Assembly (NCBI GenBank): GCA_945883435.1
Contig: CAMCXK010000001.1
Location: 1 to 64,000, forward strand
DNA length: 64,000 bases
DNA from: Chthoniobacter flavus
GTDB taxonomy: Bacteria > Verrucomicrobiota > Verrucomicrobiia > Chthoniobacterales > Terrimicrobiaceae
Direction: 5' to 3'
Shown here: one piece after another, positions 16,550-28,948 of the stretch
Position numbering within the stretch: position 1 is the first letter of the stretch
Layout of the letters: the number at the start of each line of letters is the position of its first letter
Program-made: the position numbers and the translations under genes
Notes under the pieces: generated by a model
Database searches by the model: none
Seen by the model: only the letters and a program-made list of their open reading frames with translations
Told to the model about the DNA's origin: nothing

Positions 16550-18517
16550 TCATCGGCTGAGGCGGTTCCTATCGACGGAATAAATTGTAAGTTTGGGCTT
16601 GTTCAACGTGTCAGCGGCGATCCGATATATTCTTTCACCATCAGTAAAAGTTGCAGCTCCATCGCCAAAAAGTGCGATACTTGAGGTTAACTGCTCCTTC
16701 ATTTTTCGCCATGGTTTGGCGGTAATGGATTCCCCGCTGTTGACACTAGTCCTGCGCTCCATCTCTCTTATTTTGTATTCTAGGGTAACTAATAAATAAA
16801 TCTTATCATTATCGAGTGTGTCAAAAAGAATTTTAATCCGCTCCAATCTTTTTTGAATCTCATATTGAAACGTTGATTGATTCTCAAGTTCTTGCAAGGG
16901 TTCGAAACCGCTATCATTTGGAATTGCGAGTGATGTTTTTAATGCCCATGTGCCTTTGTGCAATATCTCAGAATATGTTTCTGGAAATATCAAAAAATCC
17001 TGAGGATTGTTTGATGGAACACGTTTTTGCGACTTCGTATCCGCATCGAATAGCGAAAATATAGACGATCCGGGTTGTAAATTCACCTTGGAGTCAACCT
17101 TGAGCTTATAAGGTGCATTGTTAGTCGAAGCGGCTTGTTCCCATGTAATCTGACCAACCCTTGATTCCGTTTTCTCAGATAAGTAGCCTAAGAATAAACC
17201 ATCGCGAGTTTCAACAACTGAAAGAACACCGCCATTGCGCGTAAAACTATCATTATCTGATTGATCGGCTGGCTGAACAATCCAAGCCCTGGACATTATG
17301 CTGTCTGTATTTGATAAAATAGCACCTGATGAATCAAACGGATCAAACAAAAGACTATTAGCTGTTAAAGAATACGGCGTGAATTTTGTATGAATATTAG
17401 TATTTGGTATGGCTGAAAGCGGATCTTGTGGAGCATCATTCCACCACCTTCGTGTTGAATTGTCACCAGTCATTGAGAAATCACTCCATCGAATTGCGCC
17501 AAATCGCATCCCACCGATATTTTTTGGAAAGAAGACCGCGGCAGAGTCTGTGTTCTTCCAGTTTAAAGCTTTTAACAAAAATCCCGGACGAACATAACCA
17601 AGAACCTTCGCAGGGTATGCATCTTTAGCGAGATTTCGAAAAGCAACTTTTCGCTCGAACTCGGCCCCCGCAAAGCTCCCTGCCTCGGAATACTTTAAAA
17701 TAATGCTATCCGCCGCTTCACAAAATGCCGCGTCGCCACCGGAAAGTTCATAGATAGGACTTCTTGATTTGGCGACAATACCACTTGCAAGAATCTCTGA
17801 AAGCGGAATGCCATTGAACTCTGGATCGATATCTTGATTTGAAATCGAGACCTCGCTTGCGGAAACATTGTCTGCAGGAGTAGACAGTAATTTCCCTTTA
17901 AAATCTGTTTCGGAATTAAATAATACTACGGATCCTTTTGATCTCTTTATTATTGCGTCAGACCTTTTTTGTTGTTCGGCTATAAATGTTTCAAATTTAG
18001 CTGAATACAAACTCAGTTGTTTTTGAATAGACTCGGGGAACATTTCAACTGGCCAGCTATAACGACGAGAATTTGTATCTCGGAATTTTACCTCCTCACG
18101 GGATACTTCAGTAATAAATACGTCATTAAACGTCTGACCACCCGCTTCGATTGAATCGAAGTGCATCATCGGAAAAAGATCAACCAGGTGTTTGTTGACT
18201 TTTGGATTTAAACCATTTGTCTGATTTGATTCATCAATAACAGATTCTAATTCTAAAATGTTATCTATTGTATTTCTTGCAATTAGCAAATTCTCGCTTT
18301 TTAAAAGAATGTTAAATGCTCCTGGTGGAAAACTTACGCACATGAAGACATGGGATAAGGGCATATCAAGAACCGACCGACCGTTAAGGACATACTGCAT
18401 TGTGACGAGTGTGTTGGGTTCACTAGATTGCTCTGCACTTTGCAAGGTAGGTATAAAAAGTATAAATAAAAAAGCCGCTATGCAACGTGCAATTTGATTT
18501 GCTCTTGTCAAATTCAT
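16550..18517 (-). CDS. Exported protein of unknown function, AT-rich gene
   Basis: I do not recognise this 655-residue protein. It starts with a signal peptide ('CIAAFLFILFIPTLQSAEQ'), so it is probably secreted or periplasmic. There are no further membrane segments and no catalytic motif that I can name. It is rich in Ser, Asn, Asp and Lys. Two stretches are worth a profile search: 'GGMRFGAIRWSDFSMTGD' and the segment around 'YLVTLEYKIREMERRTSV'. The gene is clearly richer in A+T than its neighbours on both sides, suggesting recent transfer. ATG at 18517 is preferred over a TTG at 18535 because it opens the signal peptide. It is convergent with the ABC exporter and follows the pilus operon on the same strand after 142 bases. 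Confidence 0.75.
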   Translation of the reverse strand: MNLTRANQIARCIAAFLFILFIPTLQSAEQSSEPNTLVTMQYVLNGRSVLDMPLSHVFMCVSFPPGAFNILLKSENLLIARNTIDNILELESVIDESNQTNGLNPKVNKHLVDLFPMMHFDSIEAGGQTFNDVFITEVSREEVKFRDTNSRRYSWPVEMFPESIQKQLSLYSAKFETFIAEQQKRSDAIIKRSKGSVVLFNSETDFKGKLLSTPADNVSASEVSISNQDIDPEFNGIPLSEILASGIVAKSRSPIYELSGGDAAFCEAADSIILKYSEAGSFAGAEFERKVAFRNLAKDAYPAKVLGYVRPGFLLKALNWKNTDSAAVFFPKNIGGMRFGAIRWSDFSMTGDNSTRRWWNDAPQDPLSAIPNTNIHTKFTPYSLTANSLLFDPFDSSGAILSNTDSIMSRAWIVQPADQSDNDSFTRNGGVLSVVETRDGLFLGYLSEKTESRVGQITWEQAASTNNAPYKLKVDSKVNLQPGSSIFSLFDADTKSQKRVPSNNPQDFLIFPETYSEILHKGTWALKTSLAIPNDSGFEPLQELENQSTFQYEIQKRLERIKILFDTLDNDKIYLLVTLEYKIREMERRTSVNSGESITAKPWRKMKEQLTSSIALFGDGAATFTDGERIYRIAADTLNKPKLTIYSVDRNRLSR

Positions 18518-18659
18518 AGGTTCATTTCTATGCAACCCTATAAATGTCCAGAATAATTATTACTCCGGCAATATAAAGGGTGGAGTAAAAAACCGGTCTT
18601 CTTGTCTGCAATTATGCTCCCATGTGCCTTCTATTAATTTGCCCGAGTAATATCTGGGC
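18518..18659. other. AT-rich spacer between pilus operon and orphan exported gene
   Basis: These 142 bases hold no open frame of note. Two short inverted repeats are visible: TTACTCC...GGAGTAA (about 18559-18587) followed by an A-run, and GCCC...GGGC near 18640-18658, just after the secretin stop. Either could form a weak terminator for minus-strand pilus transcripts, but neither has a strong stem plus T-run. Promoter signals for the AT-rich orphan gene would also have to lie here; I cannot name them. Confidence 0.4.
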
Positions 18660-21260
18660 TTATTTGCCGCGGTAGCGCTGGAAATTGGGCTGGGGGAGGT
18701 CGTCGGGCAGTCCGATGGGGTCGACGGTTTCCTCTTCGTCGTCTTGCTGAATCAAGGGTTGGCCCTCGGCGTTCATGAGGCGCGCAGTGACGAAGACGAT
18801 CAAGTTGCGTTTGATTTTTTGATCTACATTTGAGCGGAAAAGACGGCCGGCCAGCGGGATATCGCCGAGGATCGGCACTTTGTCGTTGACCCGTTGCACG
18901 TCCTCGCGGATCAAGCCGCCCAAGGCCACGGTTTGACCATCCCAAATACTCACGCTGGTGGTCACTTTGCGAACCGAGAAAATCGGTTGGTTGATCACGT
19001 TGGGTGTGATGGTAAAAATCCCGATGCCTGAAGGGTTGCCCGCAGTGATCTCACGAGGATCGTAACGTGGGCCGATGATCGGCGAGCCATAGTTGACAAA
19101 GCCATCAAATTCCGTGACTTCCGGTGTGAGATTCAGATCGATCGTGTAGTTGTCGGCGCCCACTTGGGGTTCGACTTCCAAGCTTACGCCCAAATCACGC
19201 TTTTCAAATGCCGTGGGCGTCGAAGGAGTGACAAGACCGGAGGTTACGACGATGCCCCCGCCATCGCCACCTGTGGTCAATTGACCGCTTTCAGCTTCAG
19301 GAACCTCCGGTGGGTCGAACTCGGTTGGAAAGGGAAATTCTCGGACAATCTTAATGGTTGCTTTATTTCCACTCTTGGTGGTCACCTTGGGAGCCGACAT
19401 CAGGTCCACACCTTTTTGTTGGCTGAGGGCACGAATGACGACTTGGAACTGCGGGTTGGTAAAGATTCCCGCGATGCCAAAAATGGCGGGTGAGGCCACG
19501 TTCGCTCCCTGAGGAACACCTGCGATGAGCGCATCCAAGCTGTTGGCAGTGATGGCCGAGTTGTAACTGGTGCCGATGCCGTTGCGATTGCCGCCGGTGA
19601 TTGGATTTTGGCCAGCATTGCCAAAAGGAAAGTTCGCGTAGTAATCGCCTGAGAGTCCTTGATTCCCCTCTTGGGAGGGATCGGTATCTGCGCGGGTGCC
19701 GCCATCTCCATAAACGCCGCCGCCGATGCCGAACGGACCGAGCAGCCAGTCGAAGCCGAGTTCATCCACATTGTTTTGTGTGATTTCCACAAACTTGCTC
19801 TCAATTTCCACTTGGGTTGGCGGGACCCCCATATCGCCTTCGACCAAGGTGTCGATGAGTTCGATGGCTCCTTGCGTGTTGCGCACGATGAGTTTACTGC
19901 CGGAGGGAATGTATTGCGCAAAAGAACCTTCTGGGAACGGAACTCCTTGCTGGGTGAGATATTCCGTCGCATTGCGGCTGCCCGTGATGCGTGTATTGGA
20001 GGAGGCCGCTTGGGCGCCCGGGCGGGGGGTGGAGGATTCTGCTGTTGTCGAGGTTGGCGGGATGAAGCCTGGAGAGACCCGATATTGCTTGGTCACGAGT
20101 TCATCGGTATTTTCCGTGGCGGGAACGATGAGGACCGCAGAGGGGTCGATTTTGTATTTCATCCCCGCCAGTTCAGTCAGGTAGCGAATCGCCTCGATGA
20201 GCGGCACGTTGCGGAGATCCATCGTGATCTTGGTATCTTCGGTGACTGTCGGGGTTGCGGTTTCGCCTGGCAAGGGAGCTTCCGCTGTGGCAGTTGGCTG
20301 TGGGCTTGCGGTGGCAAGCTTCAACACAATATTGACGCCCTTCTTTTTGGCATCGTCCGTGCTGTTGTCGAGTTTGCGGCTTTTCTCTTTGAGAAAAGCC
20401 ACGACCTCCCGCACGGAGGAATCTTCCAAATTAATCCGGTCGATGATGATGGAATTCAGCTTGCGGGTGATGGCATCTTTGGACACGGCGGCTTGGAATC
20501 CATTATCAGCGCCCGCTGTGGAGCGGCTTCCGCCGCCAAACCGACGAACCGGGCGCTCCCAGGCGCGGTCCACAAGCCAAAGCATGCGGCTGCGGGTTTC
20601 GTTGTAGGCCTCATTGTAGTAGGTGGTGCGTTGCTGGGCAACTTGTTCCATCCCATTGCGGGCCGCCGTGTTGTAGGGATCAATGTTCAACACCTGCTCG
20701 TAACGCTTCATCGCGAGATCGTAACGACCGGTGGCAAAGTAGCCTTGAGCTTGATTCAAAAGTTTGGATGCCTCATCGGTATTGGCGGCGGATCGTGGGG
20801 TCACGGTGCGGTTGTAGTAACCGGGTTGCTCGAGATTGGCCAAGAATTGGACTGCTGGTTTGAAGGAGGGATTGATCTGGGGTGAAAGGATCGTTTTGGC
20901 CACACTTTCCGCATCGGCAAAGCGACCTTGGGAGACGAGCCAATTGGCGTAGTCGATGCCGCAGCGGCTGAAGTCGTTCACGATCTCGCTGCGCCGAGCG
21001 GCTGCGATGGAGCTGCCGTGGGTGAGTTCCACGGCCTCAAGATATTGAGTGTAGGCTGCTTCCAGATTTTTATCCGCTTTGCTGCGGCTGGCTTTTGAGA
21101 CCAAGCTCTCCGCTTGCAGAAGGTCTTCTTGGCGGCGGATGATTTCGCGCTCGGAAAGAGCGACCGCATCCAGCGCCCAAGAGGGAGCGGGAGCCATGAT
21201 CACGGTGGCGGCGAGAATCAGGCGGCGAACCATAGGGTGCATCGGTTGAAAAAGCATCAT
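18660..21260 (-). CDS. Amuc_1098-like type IV pilus secretin, second copy
   Basis: An 866-residue outer-membrane secretin of the Amuc_1098 family. It has a signal peptide ('LILAATVIMAPAPSWALD'), then TPR-like repeats ('GYFATGRYDLAMKRYEQVLN'), short N-domains ('IIIDRINLEDSSVREVVAFL') and a C-terminal secretin core. The core includes 'VRKVTTSVSIWDGQTVALGG' and 'VPILGDIPLAGRLFRSN', followed by 'QKIKRNLIVFVTARLM'. A glycine/asparagine-rich insert sits near 'FGIGGGVYGDGGT'. The protein should form the multimeric gate through which a pilus or secreted substrate passes. It lies three bases after an equally organised paralogue, so the two arose by tandem duplication. The start could also be an internal ATG at 21233. 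It is the last gene of the operon. Confidence 0.9.
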   Translation of the reverse strand: MMLFQPMHPMVRRLILAATVIMAPAPSWALDAVALSEREIIRRQEDLLQAESLVSKASRSKADKNLEAAYTQYLEAVELTHGSSIAAARRSEIVNDFSRCGIDYANWLVSQGRFADAESVAKTILSPQINPSFKPAVQFLANLEQPGYYNRTVTPRSAANTDEASKLLNQAQGYFATGRYDLAMKRYEQVLNIDPYNTAARNGMEQVAQQRTTYYNEAYNETRSRMLWLVDRAWERPVRRFGGGSRSTAGADNGFQAAVSKDAITRKLNSIIIDRINLEDSSVREVVAFLKEKSRKLDNSTDDAKKKGVNIVLKLATASPQPTATAEAPLPGETATPTVTEDTKITMDLRNVPLIEAIRYLTELAGMKYKIDPSAVLIVPATENTDELVTKQYRVSPGFIPPTSTTAESSTPRPGAQAASSNTRITGSRNATEYLTQQGVPFPEGSFAQYIPSGSKLIVRNTQGAIELIDTLVEGDMGVPPTQVEIESKFVEITQNNVDELGFDWLLGPFGIGGGVYGDGGTRADTDPSQEGNQGLSGDYYANFPFGNAGQNPITGGNRNGIGTSYNSAITANSLDALIAGVPQGANVASPAIFGIAGIFTNPQFQVVIRALSQQKGVDLMSAPKVTTKSGNKATIKIVREFPFPTEFDPPEVPEAESGQLTTGGDGGGIVVTSGLVTPSTPTAFEKRDLGVSLEVEPQVGADNYTIDLNLTPEVTEFDGFVNYGSPIIGPRYDPREITAGNPSGIGIFTITPNVINQPIFSVRKVTTSVSIWDGQTVALGGLIREDVQRVNDKVPILGDIPLAGRLFRSNVDQKIKRNLIVFVTARLMNAEGQPLIQQDDEEETVDPIGLPDDLPQPNFQRYRGK

Positions 21261-21263
21261 AAC

Positions 21264-23729
21264 TTATTGGGGAAGAGGCTCCGTAAGAACGTCGCCAGGG
21301 ATGGCTTCGGAGAGCATGCCTTCGACATCGACATCCGGAATATCCGAGTCATCCTCCTCCACTTCGATGATCGGTTGGCCGGCCGGATCCAGGAGGCTGG
21401 CTGTGACAAACATGATCAAATTGCGCTTGATGTGTTGGTCGACATTCGAGCGGAAGAGACGTCCGGCCAACGGGATATCCCCAAGGATTGGCACTTTGTC
21501 CTGAACTTGCTGAACATCTTCCCGCATCAGGCCGCCGATGACCACGGTTTGTCCATCATAGACGGAAACTTGTGTTTCCACCTCGCGGGTGGAGAAGACA
21601 GGTTGATTGATGGTATTGGGAGTTGCTTCAAATGTGCGGGACGGAAGCAAGAATTCAACGATCGGCGCGATCACGGTCGTGACCGAAGCGGCCACTGTGG
21701 CATTGATCGGGCTACCGTAATTGATAAATCCGTCGAATTCGATCACGCGCGGGGCCAACCGAAGGTCGATGGTATAGGAATCCGAGCCAACGGTAGGCTC
21801 CACTTCCAAAGTAATGCCGGTATTTTTCGTATCCCAAGCGGTGGGGGTATTGGGAACCACTGGCGTGTATTGAGATCCGTTGGTCGCCGAAAGTTGGGGC
21901 GGGTCGAACTCGGTCGGGTAACGGAATTCGCGAACGATTTCGATGGTGGCGCTTTTGCCGCTTTGTGTGGTGACTTTGGGTGCGCTCACCAAGTCGATGC
22001 CTTTTTGTTGGCTCAGGGCGCGCATGACGATTTGAAATTGCGGATTGGTAAAGACACCGGCTACGGCCAACGCAGCTGGTGCGGGGCCAACGGGAGAGCC
22101 CAGCAAGATGGCGTCCAAAGCATTCAAGCTGATGGCCGAGGTTCCACTCCGGTTGCCTGCGGTGACAGGCCCGGCTGTTCTGGAACTGGCTCCGATGGGG
22201 AGACCATTTACGCCGGGGTTGCTCAGAGGGTAACCAGCAGAGTCAATCGAACGACCGAATCCTTCGGTGCCGCCGGAGCCATAGACTCCGGAGCCACCGG
22301 CGAGCGCAAACTGGCCAACCAGCCAGTCGAAGCCGAGTTCATTGAGGTTGTTTTGATTGACTTCGAGAAACTTGGCTTCGATTTCGATCTGGGTCGGTTT
22401 GGTGGTGGCCGCGGTATCCACAAGGGCATCGACGAGATCGAGGTTGGTTCGAGTGTTTTTGACGATCAAGCGGCTGGTGGTTGGAACGTAGTAGGCGCTG
22501 GCGCCGGGCGGGAAGGTCACTTGTTGTTTCTCCAAGTAATCTTTGGCCATCGAGCGACCGGCTGTGGCACCGCCCGCGGCACCTCCCGTTCCTCCGGGGA
22601 TATTTTGAATGAAGCCGGGTGGGACTTTGTATTCCTTGGTCACGAGTTCATCGGTATTTTCGGTCGAAGGAACCACGACGACGGCAAAGGGCTCGACTTT
22701 CACTTTGAGGCCGACCGCATCGGTCACAAAGTCCAGCGCAGCCCGCAGGGAGACGTCCCTGACAGAGAGGGTGATTTGGCTGTTTTCCTCGGAAAAATCG
22801 GCAGGCAACTTGGTCACGATGTTGATGCCGCGTTTGGTCGGGTCAGCTTCCTCGGAGTCGAGATCGGCGGCGCGTTTTTTGATAAATGCGAGAGCCTCAC
22901 GGATCGAGGCGTCTTCAAAGTTGAGTTCGGGAATGGTAATCGCGTCGAGTTTTTCGAGAATTGCCTGGCTGGACTTGGTCGAAATCTCGGGCTGGGAAAT
23001 GATCGAACTCGGTCCATCGGTGAATTTGCGGACCGGGAGTTCCCAAGCTTTGGCAACTTGGGAAAGCATATCGCCGCGGGCTTCGTTGTAAGCCGCATCG
23101 GCATAGCGTTGGCGGGCTTGGTTGATTTTTTCCATCAATCGACGGGCGGCGATGTTATATTTGTCAATGTTGAGGGCTTGCTCGCAACGGCGGAAGGCCA
23201 GATCGAAGCGGCCTGTGGCGTAGTAACCTTCGCCTTCGTTGAGAAGTTTTTTCACTTCCTCGATGTTCGCCACATGGCCAGGCGTGAGTGTGCCGCGGTC
23301 CACGAAGCCTTGGGGATCGAGGATTTGCGCACGAAGGGCCAAAGCGGCGGAATTCGCCGGGTCGTAGCGGTCTTCAAGAAGGACATCGATGGTGCCGCGG
23401 GCATCGGCATAGCGGCCCTCGGACAGGCGTTGCTTGGCAAGGAGAACGCAGGCTTGGCCAAAGAGCTGGACGGCCGACTGGCGAAGGGCGGAAGACGCCG
23501 CTCCGCTCGCGGGCAGGATATCGACGGCGCTCTTCGCATAGGCATAGGCGGATTCGTAATCCTTGCCAGCAAGGGCTTCGGTGGCCTTCGGAAGAAGTTC
23601 GTTTTCCACGTAGCGGGCTTTGGCGTCACGTTCGGCGATTTCGCGCTGGGCCATGCCTTCGATGCCCGGGTGCTGGGCGTGGGCGAGGGAACCGAGCGCA
23701 AGGACAAGGAGGAGCGGGATGGCACGCAT
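21264..23729 (-). CDS. Amuc_1098-like type IV pilus secretin, first copy
   Basis: An 821-residue secretin. The signal peptide is 'AIPLLLVLALGSLAHAQ'. TPR-like helices follow ('GEGYYATGRFDLAFRRCEQA'), then N-domains ('ITIPELNFEDASIREALAFI', 'LRAALDFVTDAVGLKV') and the secretin core with 'VETQVSVYDGQTVVIGG', 'VPILGDIPLAGRLFRSN' and 'HIKRNLIMFVTASLLD'. It ends in an acidic tail ('EVEEDDSDIPDVDVEGM') that the second copy replaces with different sequence. ATG at 23729 is chosen; upstream codons in the frame overlap the preceding gene and lack a signal peptide. The gap to the Amuc_1099-like stop is seven bases. The two secretins share core motifs nearly verbatim but differ in N-terminal and loop regions. 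Confidence 0.92.
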   Translation of the reverse strand: MRAIPLLLVLALGSLAHAQHPGIEGMAQREIAERDAKARYVENELLPKATEALAGKDYESAYAYAKSAVDILPASGAASSALRQSAVQLFGQACVLLAKQRLSEGRYADARGTIDVLLEDRYDPANSAALALRAQILDPQGFVDRGTLTPGHVANIEEVKKLLNEGEGYYATGRFDLAFRRCEQALNIDKYNIAARRLMEKINQARQRYADAAYNEARGDMLSQVAKAWELPVRKFTDGPSSIISQPEISTKSSQAILEKLDAITIPELNFEDASIREALAFIKKRAADLDSEEADPTKRGINIVTKLPADFSEENSQITLSVRDVSLRAALDFVTDAVGLKVKVEPFAVVVVPSTENTDELVTKEYKVPPGFIQNIPGGTGGAAGGATAGRSMAKDYLEKQQVTFPPGASAYYVPTTSRLIVKNTRTNLDLVDALVDTAATTKPTQIEIEAKFLEVNQNNLNELGFDWLVGQFALAGGSGVYGSGGTEGFGRSIDSAGYPLSNPGVNGLPIGASSRTAGPVTAGNRSGTSAISLNALDAILLGSPVGPAPAALAVAGVFTNPQFQIVMRALSQQKGIDLVSAPKVTTQSGKSATIEIVREFRYPTEFDPPQLSATNGSQYTPVVPNTPTAWDTKNTGITLEVEPTVGSDSYTIDLRLAPRVIEFDGFINYGSPINATVAASVTTVIAPIVEFLLPSRTFEATPNTINQPVFSTREVETQVSVYDGQTVVIGGLMREDVQQVQDKVPILGDIPLAGRLFRSNVDQHIKRNLIMFVTASLLDPAGQPIIEVEEDDSDIPDVDVEGMLSEAIPGDVLTEPLPQ

Positions 23730-23736
23730 GGAGGAA

Positions 23737-24714
23737 TCAGGGAGCATTGAGTGGGAGAACGCGGTAGACTTGGCCATTGGCGATGTCTTGGATTTGAGCG
23801 TTGTCGGCAGAAACATCAATCAATTTCAGTTTCACGCCGGTTTCGGGTTTCACGGAAAATTCGTCCCCTTTTTTCAGGGTGAAATCCGCGTCTCCCGGGA
23901 AAAGAAGATTGCGGAAGGTGCCGAACGAGGTCGGGTCGTCCTTTTCTTTGTTAAACACCAGAACAATGGATTCACCGGTTTCGATGTTTTCGACGGTCAA
24001 TTCGGAGAGGTTTTCGACGACGCCTTTGTCGTTTGGGCCTTCTTTGGCTTCGTATCGGATGAGCTTGTAAGGAGCTCCTTCGACAAGGTCGCCGAGTGCG
24101 CGGTATTGTGTTTTCTGGGAGCCTCTGGAAATGTCTTTCAGGTTGATTTGAAATTCCTTGCCTTCGCCCGAGGGGTCGCCTTTGAACACAAGGCGGAAGG
24201 GCTTGGGTGAGAATTGAACGAGCTTCAGCTTGTTCAGAGCAGGTGGGCTTTGTTTGGGATCAACCGGGCTGGTTTTTGCCAGAAATTCTTCCAAATTGGT
24301 GAAGCCATCGGAGTCGGAGTCCGAGTCCTTGATCGCCATATCGGTGTAATCGAGGCCGTTGCGGAGGAGCCATTCATTGTCAATGGGCGGGTGAAGTTGC
24401 TCGGAACCCTCGATCGGATCGATGAGTTTGCCATCCTTCAGGAGATAAGCCCTGGAGACAAGAAGCGATCCGCGGGGGGAGTCGGAAGGGAGGTCGGCGG
24501 CGGATTTCCAGCGTTGAGGCTGGGAGACGGTAGCGGCAGCTTGCTGAAGCGCAGTAAAATTTGGTTGCTCAAAGGTATTATCCGGGGCAGTGGCGGCGGC
24601 CGGAAGAGAGGAGTCCGAGAATCCGCTGGTAGCCAGCCACGCGGCATTTCCAACGAGCGCAAGGGTGGCAAGGATCAGAAAGGCGAGATCGTAGTTTTTC
24701 TTAACCCACTCCAT
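23737..24714 (-). CDS. Amuc_1099-like pilus-system protein
   Basis: A 325-residue protein in the position and with the architecture of Amuc_1099 of Akkermansia, annotated as a pilus-like system protein of unknown mechanism. A single N-terminal membrane anchor ('FLILATLALVGNAAWLATSG', about residues 11-30) precedes a periplasmic region. The segment 'DSDSDSDGFTNLEEFLAKTS' is a calcium-binding DxDxDG loop like those in thrombospondin type 3 or dockerin repeats. The C-terminal part contains 'LTVENIETGESIVLVFNKEK'. It may play the part of PilP or GspC, bridging inner-membrane components to the secretin (inference). Spacing to its neighbours is three and seven bases, inside one operon. Confidence 0.87.
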   Translation of the reverse strand: MEWVKKNYDLAFLILATLALVGNAAWLATSGFSDSSLPAAATAPDNTFEQPNFTALQQAAATVSQPQRWKSAADLPSDSPRGSLLVSRAYLLKDGKLIDPIEGSEQLHPPIDNEWLLRNGLDYTDMAIKDSDSDSDGFTNLEEFLAKTSPVDPKQSPPALNKLKLVQFSPKPFRLVFKGDPSGEGKEFQINLKDISRGSQKTQYRALGDLVEGAPYKLIRYEAKEGPNDKGVVENLSELTVENIETGESIVLVFNKEKDDPTSFGTFRNLLFPGDADFTLKKGDEFSVKPETGVKLKLIDVSADNAQIQDIANGQVYRVLPLNAP

Positions 24715-24717
24715 AAG

Positions 24718-25608
24718 CTATTTTTTCGGGTCCTCCGGCAAATCGGCGAAATCGAGCAGTTCCACTTCAACAACAGCCTTGACGCTTTCGCGACCGAGAA
24801 CGGCTTGAATTTTTTCGGTTTCGAGTCCAGCGGATTCAAAAACAGAAGCCTGTGTCTGCGGTGTCGCACGGGGCGGTGGAGTGGGGGAGGAATTTTCCAA
24901 TGTCACCGAACGGATGAGAAGGAGGGCAGGATTGGTCTGGATCGCGTTAAAAGCGTTGATGACTTTTTCTTGGGGGCCTGTGAAGGAGAGGGTGAAGGTC
25001 GAAGCGTTGAGAGGAGGTGGAGTCGGAGAGGCTGCGGGCTTCGGCGGTCCCGGTGGTTGGGCTGCGGCCGGGGTGGGCTTGGGTTCGGCGCGCTTCACCC
25101 CGTCGATCGAGACGACGGGCATTTGCACCAGCGGGTCCACGAGCGAACGAATGACTTGAAACTCGCGATTCAGAGCCGGCGTTTCTTGCTGTGAAGGGGG
25201 GGTGTCTTTGAAGGGCTCGAAGCCGTAGAAGAAATCGTCGGGAAGCTGAACGTTTTTTTCGATGGCGGTCTTTTGCAGGGCATTGACCGCGTTCCTGAGT
25301 TCGTCTTGAAATTCCTGGGGATTGGCCGGAGCGGCGGGGGCCTCCAGAGCGATGAGGCTGGCGCGATAAGAGCGCAAGGCGGAGCGGTAGGCATCCACGG
25401 AGTCCTGAACGGCCTTGAGATTGGGCTCGTTGGGAAAAGGTTTTTTTGAATCGAGGGATTGGATTTTTCCAAGTTGAGCCTGTCGTTCGTCAACGGCTTG
25501 TTGCAGGCGGGTGGAGGCATCGAAGGCCAGATAGCCCGTGGCACCGGTGCCAAGAAGGGCCACGGCTAAAATGGCGGATGGAATGGGGTTTTGCTGAAGC
25601 CAGTTCAT
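24718..25608 (-). CDS. Amuc_1100-like pilus-associated membrane protein
   Basis: A 296-residue homologue of Amuc_1100, the Akkermansia protein reported to signal through TLR2. The layout matches: one N-terminal membrane helix ('AILAVALLGTGATGYLAF', about residues 10-28), a long coiled-coil-like stretch ('QQAVDERQAQLGKIQS') and two PilO/GspM-like alpha-beta domains ('PALNREFQVIRSLVDPLVQM', 'FTLSFTGPQEKVINAFNAIQ'). The end is 'VKAVVEVELLDFADLPEDPK'. A Pro/Ala-rich linker lies between the domains. ATG at 25608 overlaps the stop of the PilM-like gene by four bases; longer starts would lie inside that gene. It probably acts as the PilO-like alignment subunit. Confidence 0.9.
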   Translation of the reverse strand: MNWLQQNPIPSAILAVALLGTGATGYLAFDASTRLQQAVDERQAQLGKIQSLDSKKPFPNEPNLKAVQDSVDAYRSALRSYRASLIALEAPAAPANPQEFQDELRNAVNALQKTAIEKNVQLPDDFFYGFEPFKDTPPSQQETPALNREFQVIRSLVDPLVQMPVVSIDGVKRAEPKPTPAAAQPPGPPKPAASPTPPPLNASTFTLSFTGPQEKVINAFNAIQTNPALLLIRSVTLENSSPTPPPRATPQTQASVFESAGLETEKIQAVLGRESVKAVVEVELLDFADLPEDPKK

Positions 25609-27350
25609 GGCAGGCGGATCGGTTGCTTCAACGGCAGAAGAAGTGTGTAGTCGTAGGCCCATGCCTCACCGGTCGGAGTGGTGCGTTTGGTGATGACTTG
25701 CGCCATGTCATCTCCGATTGCAAAAACGGCACTGGGTTTGAGATTGGCAAAAAATTCGTCGATGACGCCGGCTCCCTTGCTGTTCGGCGGATTGTCGAGA
25801 TACAGGCCATTGATTTCGATCGCGACAATGCCTTGAGGGACGTCGGTGGGCCGGGGCTGGGCGGGGGACCCGGGGCGGGCCGGCGGGGCTTTTTTGTCTT
25901 TGGGTTCCGGCGGAGTGATCGGGCCGGTGACAGGTTTGAGTTGCGTAACCCAGATGAAGCGGTCGGGAAGCATGTCGGCGAGTTCGTCGAGGATCGAGGT
26001 CCAAGCCGAACGCTCGGTCGCGACAAGGAGGAAGGGGGCCGCTTCCAAAGCAAGAGCGTCTTTTTCTACGAGGGCCGTGGCGATGCCTTGGGCTAGGCGC
26101 TCTTTGCGGGAGGCTTCGGCGGCAAGTGTTGCGGATTCATCGGAAACCCGCGTGGCTTGGCGGTCAAGGTGAAGCCACCAAAGGACGGGGGTGGCGATCA
26201 GAAAAAGGGCTGCGAGCGCGAGGCGGGGGATTTTGCGGGTTGTTTCCCGGGCGGCACGGACTTCCGGCGGGAGAAGGTTGATTTCAACAGGACAATTTTG
26301 CAGTGACCGGGTTGCGCACCCGACGAGCTCTGCCAAGCCGGAGGTTTTGACGCCATCCGGAATGGCACCGGGACCCGTCCGCACATTGCGCAAGGGGTTG
26401 AACATTCCGACGGGGAGTTGGAGTTTTTCTGCAAAGAACTCAATTGTGTAAGGCATGCCAGCCGCAGCACCGGTGAGAAGAATGCGCTGGGGACTCACGC
26501 CACCATGACTCGTGCGGTGGAAGTTCACCGAGCGGGCGATCTCCGCATGCAGTCGGGTCATGGTGTTGCGCACGACTTTCGAGATGCGGGCCGTGGTTGC
26601 ATCTTCCGGTTCGGCGTAGGCACCGCCCAGACCAACAATGCCTTTTTCGATCTTCAGCTTTTCCGCCAGCGTGATGTCCTGCTCGAATTCCTTGGCAATG
26701 GCAGCGCTGATCGTATTGCCGCCGATCGGAATGGTGCGGCTGAAAAAGCGGTCGTTGTCGATAAAAATGAGATTGGTCGTGCGGGAGCCGATGTCGATCA
26801 GCAGCGTGCAGCCGGTCGCCTCGGGGTAGTTGAATCGAAATGCGTTGAAGAGGGCTGTGGGCGCGAACTCCACGATGCCCGGGTTGAACCCGCCCTTGCC
26901 GGCGGCTTGCACCAACCCGCCGAGTTGATCGGACTTGATTGCCACGAGGGCCACATCCCAAGTTTCGCCACGGCGCTGTCCGAGAATTTGTGCATCCCAA
27001 ACCACTTCGTCGATCGGGAAGGGAACGTTTTGCTGGGCTTCGAAAGGAATGATGGAAGCGACGTCCTCCGCGGCCGCCCCGGGAAGCTTGACAAACCGGG
27101 TGAATACCGACTGCGAGGGCAGGCAAAGAGTCGCATCGAACTTTTTTGGAAGGTTGAGTGCGCTGCGAAGTTCGGTCGAAACAGCCTCGATTTGGGCATT
27201 CCGCGTGGCGTCGGCGGCCGGATCGACAATCAACTCGGAGGAGCGGTAGGAAAGCAGCTCCAACCCGCCTTCGGCGGTGTGTTGGAAGACCGCCGCGCTG
27301 GCGGTTTGCATTCCGAGATTGAACGCTATGGTGCTTGACGGGCGGGCCAT
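25605..27350 (-). CDS. Amuc_1101-like PilM-PilN fusion protein
   Basis: A 581-residue fusion. Residues 1 to about 345 form a PilM-type actin-like ATPase, with 'IPFEAQQNVPFPIDEVVWD' at 101-119, 'LLIDIGSRTTNLIFIDND' at 183-200 and 'LLTGAAAGMP' at 291-300. After a linker, a membrane helix at about 377-395 ('LALAALFLIATPVLWWLHL') and a periplasmic domain with 'WTSILDELADMLPDRFIWVT' correspond to PilN. It should form the cytoplasmic ring and inner-membrane anchor of the pilus machine. A proline-rich linker ('PPARPGSPAQPRP') lies in the PilN part. It starts five bases after the Amuc_1102-like stop and is coupled to the next gene by ATGA. Confidence 0.93.
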   Translation of the reverse strand: MARPSSTIAFNLGMQTASAAVFQHTAEGGLELLSYRSSELIVDPAADATRNAQIEAVSTELRSALNLPKKFDATLCLPSQSVFTRFVKLPGAAAEDVASIIPFEAQQNVPFPIDEVVWDAQILGQRRGETWDVALVAIKSDQLGGLVQAAGKGGFNPGIVEFAPTALFNAFRFNYPEATGCTLLIDIGSRTTNLIFIDNDRFFSRTIPIGGNTISAAIAKEFEQDITLAEKLKIEKGIVGLGGAYAEPEDATTARISKVVRNTMTRLHAEIARSVNFHRTSHGGVSPQRILLTGAAAGMPYTIEFFAEKLQLPVGMFNPLRNVRTGPGAIPDGVKTSGLAELVGCATRSLQNCPVEINLLPPEVRAARETTRKIPRLALAALFLIATPVLWWLHLDRQATRVSDESATLAAEASRKERLAQGIATALVEKDALALEAAPFLLVATERSAWTSILDELADMLPDRFIWVTQLKPVTGPITPPEPKDKKAPPARPGSPAQPRPTDVPQGIVAIEINGLYLDNPPNSKGAGVIDEFFANLKPSAVFAIGDDMAQVITKRTTPTGEAWAYDYTLLLPLKQPIRLP

Positions 27351-27355
27351 GGAGG

Positions 27356-27979
27356 TCAGCGGGAGGCAGGCAGGTCGGGTTGGTGGTAATCGGAGGCGAG
27401 GTGGGCGAACGGAGTTTGGCTCTTACCAACAATTTTGCCCTCAACCACATTGAATGTGGAGGTGTCGTCCCACCAACCTTTGCCACTGGAAATTTTTGAT
27501 TTCCACGACAAGGGTTCTGGAGATTCGGAACCCGAAGTGGCCACCACTCCGGCATCCACAACCGCTTGCTGGATGGTGGTGGGTGGTTTTCCGTCAAAAT
27601 ACTTCAGCAACGTTTGAGGGGAGACGAACGCGGCCACATGAAGTCCTTTTTCCAGTGGAAAATCCGAGTGGGCCACCTTGCCTGTGAGCAAAGTGCGTTT
27701 GCCGTCCTCGGTGATAGCGGAGTTGTTGAGCAGGAGGTAATACTGGAAGGTCACATCTCCGGATACAGCCTCTGCATCCTTGTCGCTGGAGGAGCGGTCG
27801 AGTGTGACCTCGATTTCCAACCAATGCGATGGTCGACCGGTGGAGGATTTGCGATAGTTCGATTGAATGGTGGGCGATTCGACGAGCGTTGGTTCTATTT
27901 TTTTGAGAACAAACTCGGTTTCGGCAAACAGCAGAGCCGGGGTGAAGGAAAAAGCGGCGGCGAGCAGGATGCGTTTCAT
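27356..27979 (-). CDS. Amuc_1102-like pilus-system exported protein
   Basis: A 207-residue exported protein at the head of the pilus operon, matching Amuc_1102 in place and size. It has a clear signal peptide ('RILLAAAFSFTPALLFAET'), then a beta-rich domain with 'SHWLEIEVTLDRSSSD' and 'TFQYYLLLNNS', and near the end 'WWDDTSTFNVVEGKIVGKSQ'. Amuc_1102 has been reported to have an immunoglobulin-like fold; its exact role is not known. The start at 27979 is the only one giving a signal peptide. The upstream stretch is pyrimidine-rich with no Shine-Dalgarno. The uxs gene ends 21 bases before it on the same strand. Confidence 0.87.
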   Translation of the reverse strand: MKRILLAAAFSFTPALLFAETEFVLKKIEPTLVESPTIQSNYRKSSTGRPSHWLEIEVTLDRSSSDKDAEAVSGDVTFQYYLLLNNSAITEDGKRTLLTGKVAHSDFPLEKGLHVAAFVSPQTLLKYFDGKPPTTIQQAVVDAGVVATSGSESPEPLSWKSKISSGKGWWDDTSTFNVVEGKIVGKSQTPFAHLASDYHQPDLPASR

Positions 27980-28000: not shown

Positions 28001-28948
28001 TCAGACACGACCCCGGAAAAACTCGATGGTTTCGCGAATCCCTTGGTCGAAGTCCACCCTTGGCTCCCAGCCAAGAATGGTTTTAGCCCGCGTGATGTCG
28101 GGTTGGCGCACTTTGGGATCGTCCACAGGAAGCGGTTTGTGCTCGATCGGGCAGGCGGAACCCGTAATGCGCAGGATTTCCTCGGCAAACTGACGGATGG
28201 TCATCTCGCGGGGGTTGCCGATATTCACCGGTTCATGAAATGAACTCATCATCAGGCGGAAGATGCCGTCGATGAGATCCGAGACGAAGCAGAAGCTGCG
28301 CGTTTGGGTGCCGTCACCGAAAATGGTGAGGGGGCGTCCGGTCAACGCTTGGCCGATGAAAGCCGGCACCACCCGGCCGTCGTCCAGCCTCATGCGCGGT
28401 CCGTAAGTGTTGAAAATACGGACGATGTGGGTGTTCATTCCGTGGTAGCGATGGTAGGCCATGGTGATGGCCTCGGCGAAGCGTTTGGCTTCGTCGTAAA
28501 CCCCGCGCGGTCCGATCGGGTTGACGTTGCCCCAATAGTCCTCGGTTTGAGGGTGGATAAGCGGGTCGCCGTAGCACTCGGAGGTTGAGGCCAGCAGGAA
28601 AGCCGCGCCCTTGGCCTTTGCGAGTCCGAGGGCGTTGTGCGTGCCGAGTGACCCCACCTTCAACGTCGGGATTGGGATTTTCAGATAATCGATCGGGCTG
28701 GCAGGACTCGCGAAATGCCAGACGTAATCGACTTCACCCGGTATGTAGATGAAATCGGTGACGTCATGGCAAATGAACTTGTAGTGCGGGTTGCCGGCGA
28801 GATGTTCGATGTTTGCAACGTTTCCCGTGATGAGATTGTCAATGGCGATGACCCGGTGGCCTTCGCGCAGGAGGCGGTCGGTGAGGTGTGAGCCCAGAAA
28901 GCCCGACCCGCCGGTAATCACGCTTGTGGGTTGTTTGGTCTCGGCCAT
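28001..28948 (-). CDS. uxs: UDP-glucuronate decarboxylase (UDP-xylose synthase)
   Basis: A 315-residue short-chain dehydrogenase/epimerase that converts UDP-glucuronate to UDP-xylose for surface glycans. The NAD-binding motif is '[17 protein letters not shown]' at the N-terminus. UXS-typical stretches are '[20 protein letters not shown]', '[20 protein letters not shown]' and '[10 protein letters not shown]' with the YxxxK pair, then '[20 protein letters not shown]'. Length is typical of the bacterial enzyme. It sits 14 bases after ilvC and 21 before the pilus operon on the same strand, so it may supply sugar to a pilus- or surface-linked glycan (inference). Confidence 0.9.

Follow-up and report, generated by a model that had tools for sequence, protein, structure and literature searches.

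The pilus cassette described here ends in two full-length, diverged secretin genes in tandem. As judged from sequence, the pair goes back to one ancient duplication and was kept in six related families, which apparently belong to one order, the Chthoniobacterales. The doubling is genuine, conserved and old, and within its clade it is nothing unusual; our searches of the open-access literature found no account of it. Both pores are probably needed by the single pilus machine of the genome.

The operon consists of six co-directional open reading frames, read from the sequence on the minus strand at 18660-27979 of the window (the whole stretch of 64,000 nucleotides analyzed). They encode Amuc_1102-, 1101-, 1100- and 1099-like proteins, together with two full-length Amuc_1098-type secretins (copies A and B):

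27356..27979, minus strand: Amuc_1102-like protein, 207 aa with signal peptide, first gene of the cassette (NF042424, 72 bits versus a cut-off of 55)
25605..27350, minus strand: Amuc_1101-like PilM, 581 aa (Pfam PilM_2, E 8e-23; NF045709, 558 bits versus a cut-off of 650)
24718..25608, minus strand: Amuc_1100-like protein in the PilO position (NF038287, 181 bits versus a cut-off of 180; PDB Amuc_1100 6kny, E 2e-12)
23737..24714, minus strand: Amuc_1099-like inner-membrane-anchored protein in the PilP position (NF042425, 194 bits versus a cut-off of 50)
21264..23729, minus strand: secretin copy A, the upstream paralogue, 821 aa from ATG 23729 (NF042912, 822 bits; copy-A clade 100/100)
18660..21260, minus strand: secretin copy B, the downstream paralogue, 866 aa (NF042912, 833 bits; copy-B clade 100/100)

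The genes are separated by 5 bp (1102 to 1101), 3 bp (1100 to 1099), 7 bp (1099 to secretin A) and 3 bp (secretin A to secretin B), and 1101 and 1100 share a 4-bp ATGA overlap. These junctions and the ORF coordinates bear out the first-pass annotation, which had described a six-gene operon with spacings of at most seven bases, and NCBIfam and Pfam matches confirmed the counterparts of Amuc_1102, 1101, 1100, 1099 and the two 1098-like secretins that it had named. The likely start of 1100 is ATG 25608 and not position 25662 of the longest ORF; for secretin A it is ATG 23729 and not the TTG at 23819. Gene order 1102-1101-1100-1099-1098, as present in the window, recurs in the majority of the cassettes that were read throughout the phylum, most of them headed by 1102 and usually with one secretin at the end. 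Just upstream of 1102 (window 28001-28948) lies a sugar-nucleotide epimerase/decarboxylase-like gene that many genomes of the order, and one Verrucomicrobiaceae-like locus (L128), likewise have next to the cassette; the transcription unit may therefore extend beyond 1102 on this side. Downstream of the operon and on the same strand, window positions 16550-18535 encode a protein of 661 aa, apparently with a signal peptide, which had no family match and is absent beside the cassette in the relatives read.

Both secretins match NF042912 over their full length and exceed its curated equivalog cut-off for the Amuc_1098 secretin (NCBIfam, 750 bits), and the 1100, 1099 and 1102 homologues are likewise above their NCBIfam cut-offs. 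The 1101 homologue is by its sequence clearly a PilM; it fails the cut-off of NF045709 and is therefore named a 1101-like PilM and not a family member by that rule. Its C-terminal half is probably PilN-like, i.e. a fused PilMN: a distant 1101 homologue gave a weak PilN match (E 0.0027) in its C-terminal part, and no window protein gave a Pfam match to PilN or PilO. The roles of 1100 as PilO and 1099 as PilP are read from gene position only. Based on the PilM at 1101 and the weak PilN match in the distant homologue, we read the cassette as the verrucomicrobial pilM-to-pilQ cluster of a type IV pilus, i.e. the alignment complex and the outer-membrane secretin. The 1099-like protein (window 23737-24714) contains an Asp-rich stretch, DSDSDSDGFTNLEEF, which resembles a TSP3 calcium-binding repeat; Pfam found this repeat in a distant 1099 homologue (L132).

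Copy A is composed of a TPR-like helical region, N-domains and the secretin domain followed by a conserved tail of its own, and copy B is built alike save for the tail. Pfam detected the Secretin domain in both copies and TPR matches in B only, and a similar helical repeat region is present in the structure models of both. These AlphaFold models (mff8614cd45c1 for A, m8629ec92d022 for B) are of moderate confidence (mean pLDDT 72, pTM 0.35-0.36) and, being single chains, carry nothing on ring composition. The best solved-structure match of copy B is the pilus secretin PilQ of V. cholerae (PDB 6w6m).

Phylogenetic analysis of 82 rows placed all upstream copies in one clade and all downstream copies in another, both supported with 100/100 and each with all six families (f1, f2, f7, f9, f12 and f13); the split was seen again in a rerun with 55 rows. 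In the same order, families f3, f4, f6, f8, f10 and f11 have a single copy, and a few f6 and f4 genomes show a second match that is non-adjacent or a fragment. The six tandem-pair families also form one clade in a tree of 1101, 1100 and 1099 calculated with a quick method (SH-aLRT 98), so that one change of state suffices. In the AU test, A and B as one clade gave a p-value of 0.39, which fits a duplication either before or after the split from the single-secretin families. A recent, lineage-specific duplication is ruled out by the recurrence of the pair and by the A and B clades. Families f15 and f18 have dispersed second copies, and f19 (G196) has a tandem pair; these doublings outside the six families look independent, with less certainty for f19 because of its long branches.

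Wherever a contig from the six families was read across the site, the genome carried the pair, and this includes the window's own family. The doubled secretin had at first been singled out as the unusual part of the cassette; this holds in comparison with Akkermansia but not within its own clade. It had been added that two secretins in all relatives would make it ordinary, which applies within the clade. Two genomes of the own family (G019, G023) gave no secretin match, probably because of a gap in the assembly, as 1101 is truncated by a contig end in both; three others (G015, G004, G024) matched neither a secretin nor 1101. In G021 two A-B pairs were detected (L109, L110, L277), the second of which, located on a contig of 4.8 kb, is almost identical to the pair of G017 and may be contamination.

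The two copies share 44% identity over 835 aligned columns. The first-pass annotation had reported a common core motif, and indeed VPILGDIPLAGRLFRSN is present in both A and B; the core is conserved between the copies, with only 7 sites fixed differently. No 60-column window suggested gene conversion between A and B. The tails are distinct: that of copy B is much like the tail of the single secretins, with an acidic stretch, VEPLGLP or similar and a final K, whereas in the tail of copy A most members of f1, f9 and f13 carry a separate motif, SEAIPGDxST or a similar sequence. Between families, tail identity amounts to 0.37 for A:A, 0.46 for B:B and 0.20 for A:B. A pilotin binds the C-terminal S-domain of type II secretins, and by analogy it is plausible that the tails of A and B bind different partners. 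For pairs with unsaturated dS, dN/dS was 0.08-0.20 in both copies and somewhat higher in B; at the sequence level this indicates that both are under purifying selection, and it rules out the decay of one copy, which had been raised as a way in which the pair could be vestigial. The rates of A and B covary weakly (partial r 0.44), a value confounded by shared ancestry and fold and too low to serve as evidence.

Copy A was always found upstream and copy B downstream, in 22 loci and in 25 named public loci (the two sets comprise partly the same contigs), the latter of which were sorted cleanly by profiles from copies A, B and singles. Three lone B copies among the named public loci start at most 3 bases from a contig end, and the apparent singles in G118, G080 and G016 are contig cuts. 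Not a single clean loss of one copy was found in the loci read of the tandem clade, from which G079 with one short match was left out. The A/B junctions are gaps of 3-21 bp or overlaps of 4-8 bp, except for 58 bp in G047 and 137 bp in G106, and even small genomes of 1.7-2.1 Mb (G049, G067, G106) retain both copies. In G036, the pair resides at a separate locus with its 4-bp overlap kept, and 1102-1101-1100-1099 is intact elsewhere without a secretin. The pair is thus relocated as a unit in one family, which favours joint action over two independent gates.

The first reading had found no pilin, PilB/PilT or PilC gene in the six-gene operon and had proposed to search the remaining genome for pilins and a PilB ATPase. 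The operon indeed lacks such genes, and they are encoded elsewhere: together with PilM, the type IVa pilus set of the genome includes one PilC, PilT-type ATPases, 32 prepilin-type N-termini and two adjacent PilB-type ATPases (tandem, L254:3105-6496, PilB/GspE-type), the latter slightly below the curated PilB cut-off (620 and 604 versus 676 bits). Adjacent PilB-type pairs also occur in Akkermansia-type genomes and in single-secretin relatives, which speaks against a link between the doubled PilB and the doubled secretin. Only one PilM/1101 was found in the genome, which speaks against a second platform for a second secretin. Two separate machines, one of the options first suggested, are disfavoured by the single PilM/1101 and the single PilC besides one T2SS GspF, and the one PilM suggests that one machine probably uses both secretins. 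Besides the pair, the genome encodes two more secretins: on contig 26 a GspD-like protein of type II, and on contig 70 (L143, G000 contig 70) a type III SctC, which belongs to a type III secretion cluster that also includes SctJ. In G008, a 4.8-Mb genome of the own family, 122 prepilin-type N-termini were counted.

Our preferred explanation, to which we give about an even chance, is an ancient tandem duplication after which both copies became necessary and jointly serve one pilus machine. The secretin gene was duplicated in an ancestor of the six families, after which the copies diverged, each acquiring or retaining a conserved C-terminal tail of its own, and both would then have become required. 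Made together from genes whose start and stop codons often overlap, A and B would serve the single machine of the genome by acting together, whether in one mixed ring or in two types of ring employed at once. One old duplication, intactness, selection, linkage and the single PilM are directly supported; non-redundancy and joint function we infer. Two homomeric rings on one platform would predict equal co-retention if both are useful, which counts against joint action. A hetero-oligomeric channel, as suggested at first, is possible, and co-retention, coupled reading frames and joint relocation count slightly in its favour. That A and B form an obligate mixed ring, fixed in all six families, appears doubtful to us. 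The solved secretin structures we know of are homomeric rings, with which an obligate mixed ring, if true, would contrast. A clade that retains two diverged, co-directional secretin genes, often overlapping, for one pilus machine offers a natural way to test whether secretin rings can be mixed or one machine can work with two gates.

Somewhat unlikely, yet the strongest alternative, is a division of labour, in which A and B form separate homomeric rings that both dock on the one inner-membrane complex and serve different filaments or conditions. The helical, N-domain and secretin regions are complete in both copies, the conserved tails are paralogue-specific, and the genome would offer material for it with its 32 prepilin-like N-termini and its tandem pair of PilB-type ATPases. 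However, independent gates should sometimes be lost or separated, which was seen in none of the loci read, in G036 the two copies relocated together, and two PilB-type ATPases are also present in single-secretin relatives and do not track the secretin pair. It is improbable that one copy forms an accessory or adaptor ring, e.g. a periplasmic collar or an assembly factor, while the other alone forms the channel: the tails and, to some extent, the rates differ, the second copy is shorter in f13b and the second secretin of the rhizobial T3SS is a precedent (PMC3459982), but the whole secretin domain and the core motifs are kept in both, with the 7 differently fixed sites. We regard a mere dosage effect as very improbable. 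Amuc_1098 is the most abundant outer-membrane protein in Akkermansia (PMC4960237), and one operon, short spacing and strong selection on both copies would suit a need for more of such a protein, but the identity of 44%, the separate ancient clades, the lack of conversion and the different conserved tails speak against it. An assembly or contamination artefact is practically out of the question: although the draft genome is split into 126 contigs, the pair is internal to one of 129 kb, and its recurrence in many genomes, some of them in few contigs (G008, 3; G014, about 20), refutes this reading.

The Amuc_1098-1102 cluster of Akkermansia resembles the window operon in its five gene families and their order, and immuno-electron microscopy has placed Amuc_1098 in the outer membrane (PMC4960237). 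Whereas the window has a tandem pair, Akkermansia-type genomes (genus g40, e.g. G231) have a single secretin in the cluster, and their second NF042912 secretin is encoded at a distant locus. In the tree, this distant copy groups with the Akkermansiaceae secretins and not with A or B, which does not support the orphan as an orthologue of either. Behind the orphan, two genomes (L125:10694-12334, L127:1645-3204) carry a gene whose N-terminal sequence is similar to it and which had no family match above cut-off.

With the type IVa pilMNOPQ operon, the cassette shares PilM, the inner-membrane proteins and then the secretin, and in both systems the PilB-type and PilT-type ATPases, PilC and prepilins are encoded elsewhere in the genome; it differs in a PilN apparently fused to PilM (weak match), in the N-terminal TPR region of the secretin and in its doubling. 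TadD of the Tad pilus is a TPR protein. In RcpA-TadD (PDB 8odn), the secretin works with a TPR protein, whereas in the window the TPR region is within the secretin itself. Two secretin genes per system are also known as RhcC1/RhcC2 of the rhizobial T3SS, where the second secretin derives from a Tad locus and the first has lost much of its C-terminal part (PMC3459982); the window secretins, in contrast, are full-length tandem paralogues.
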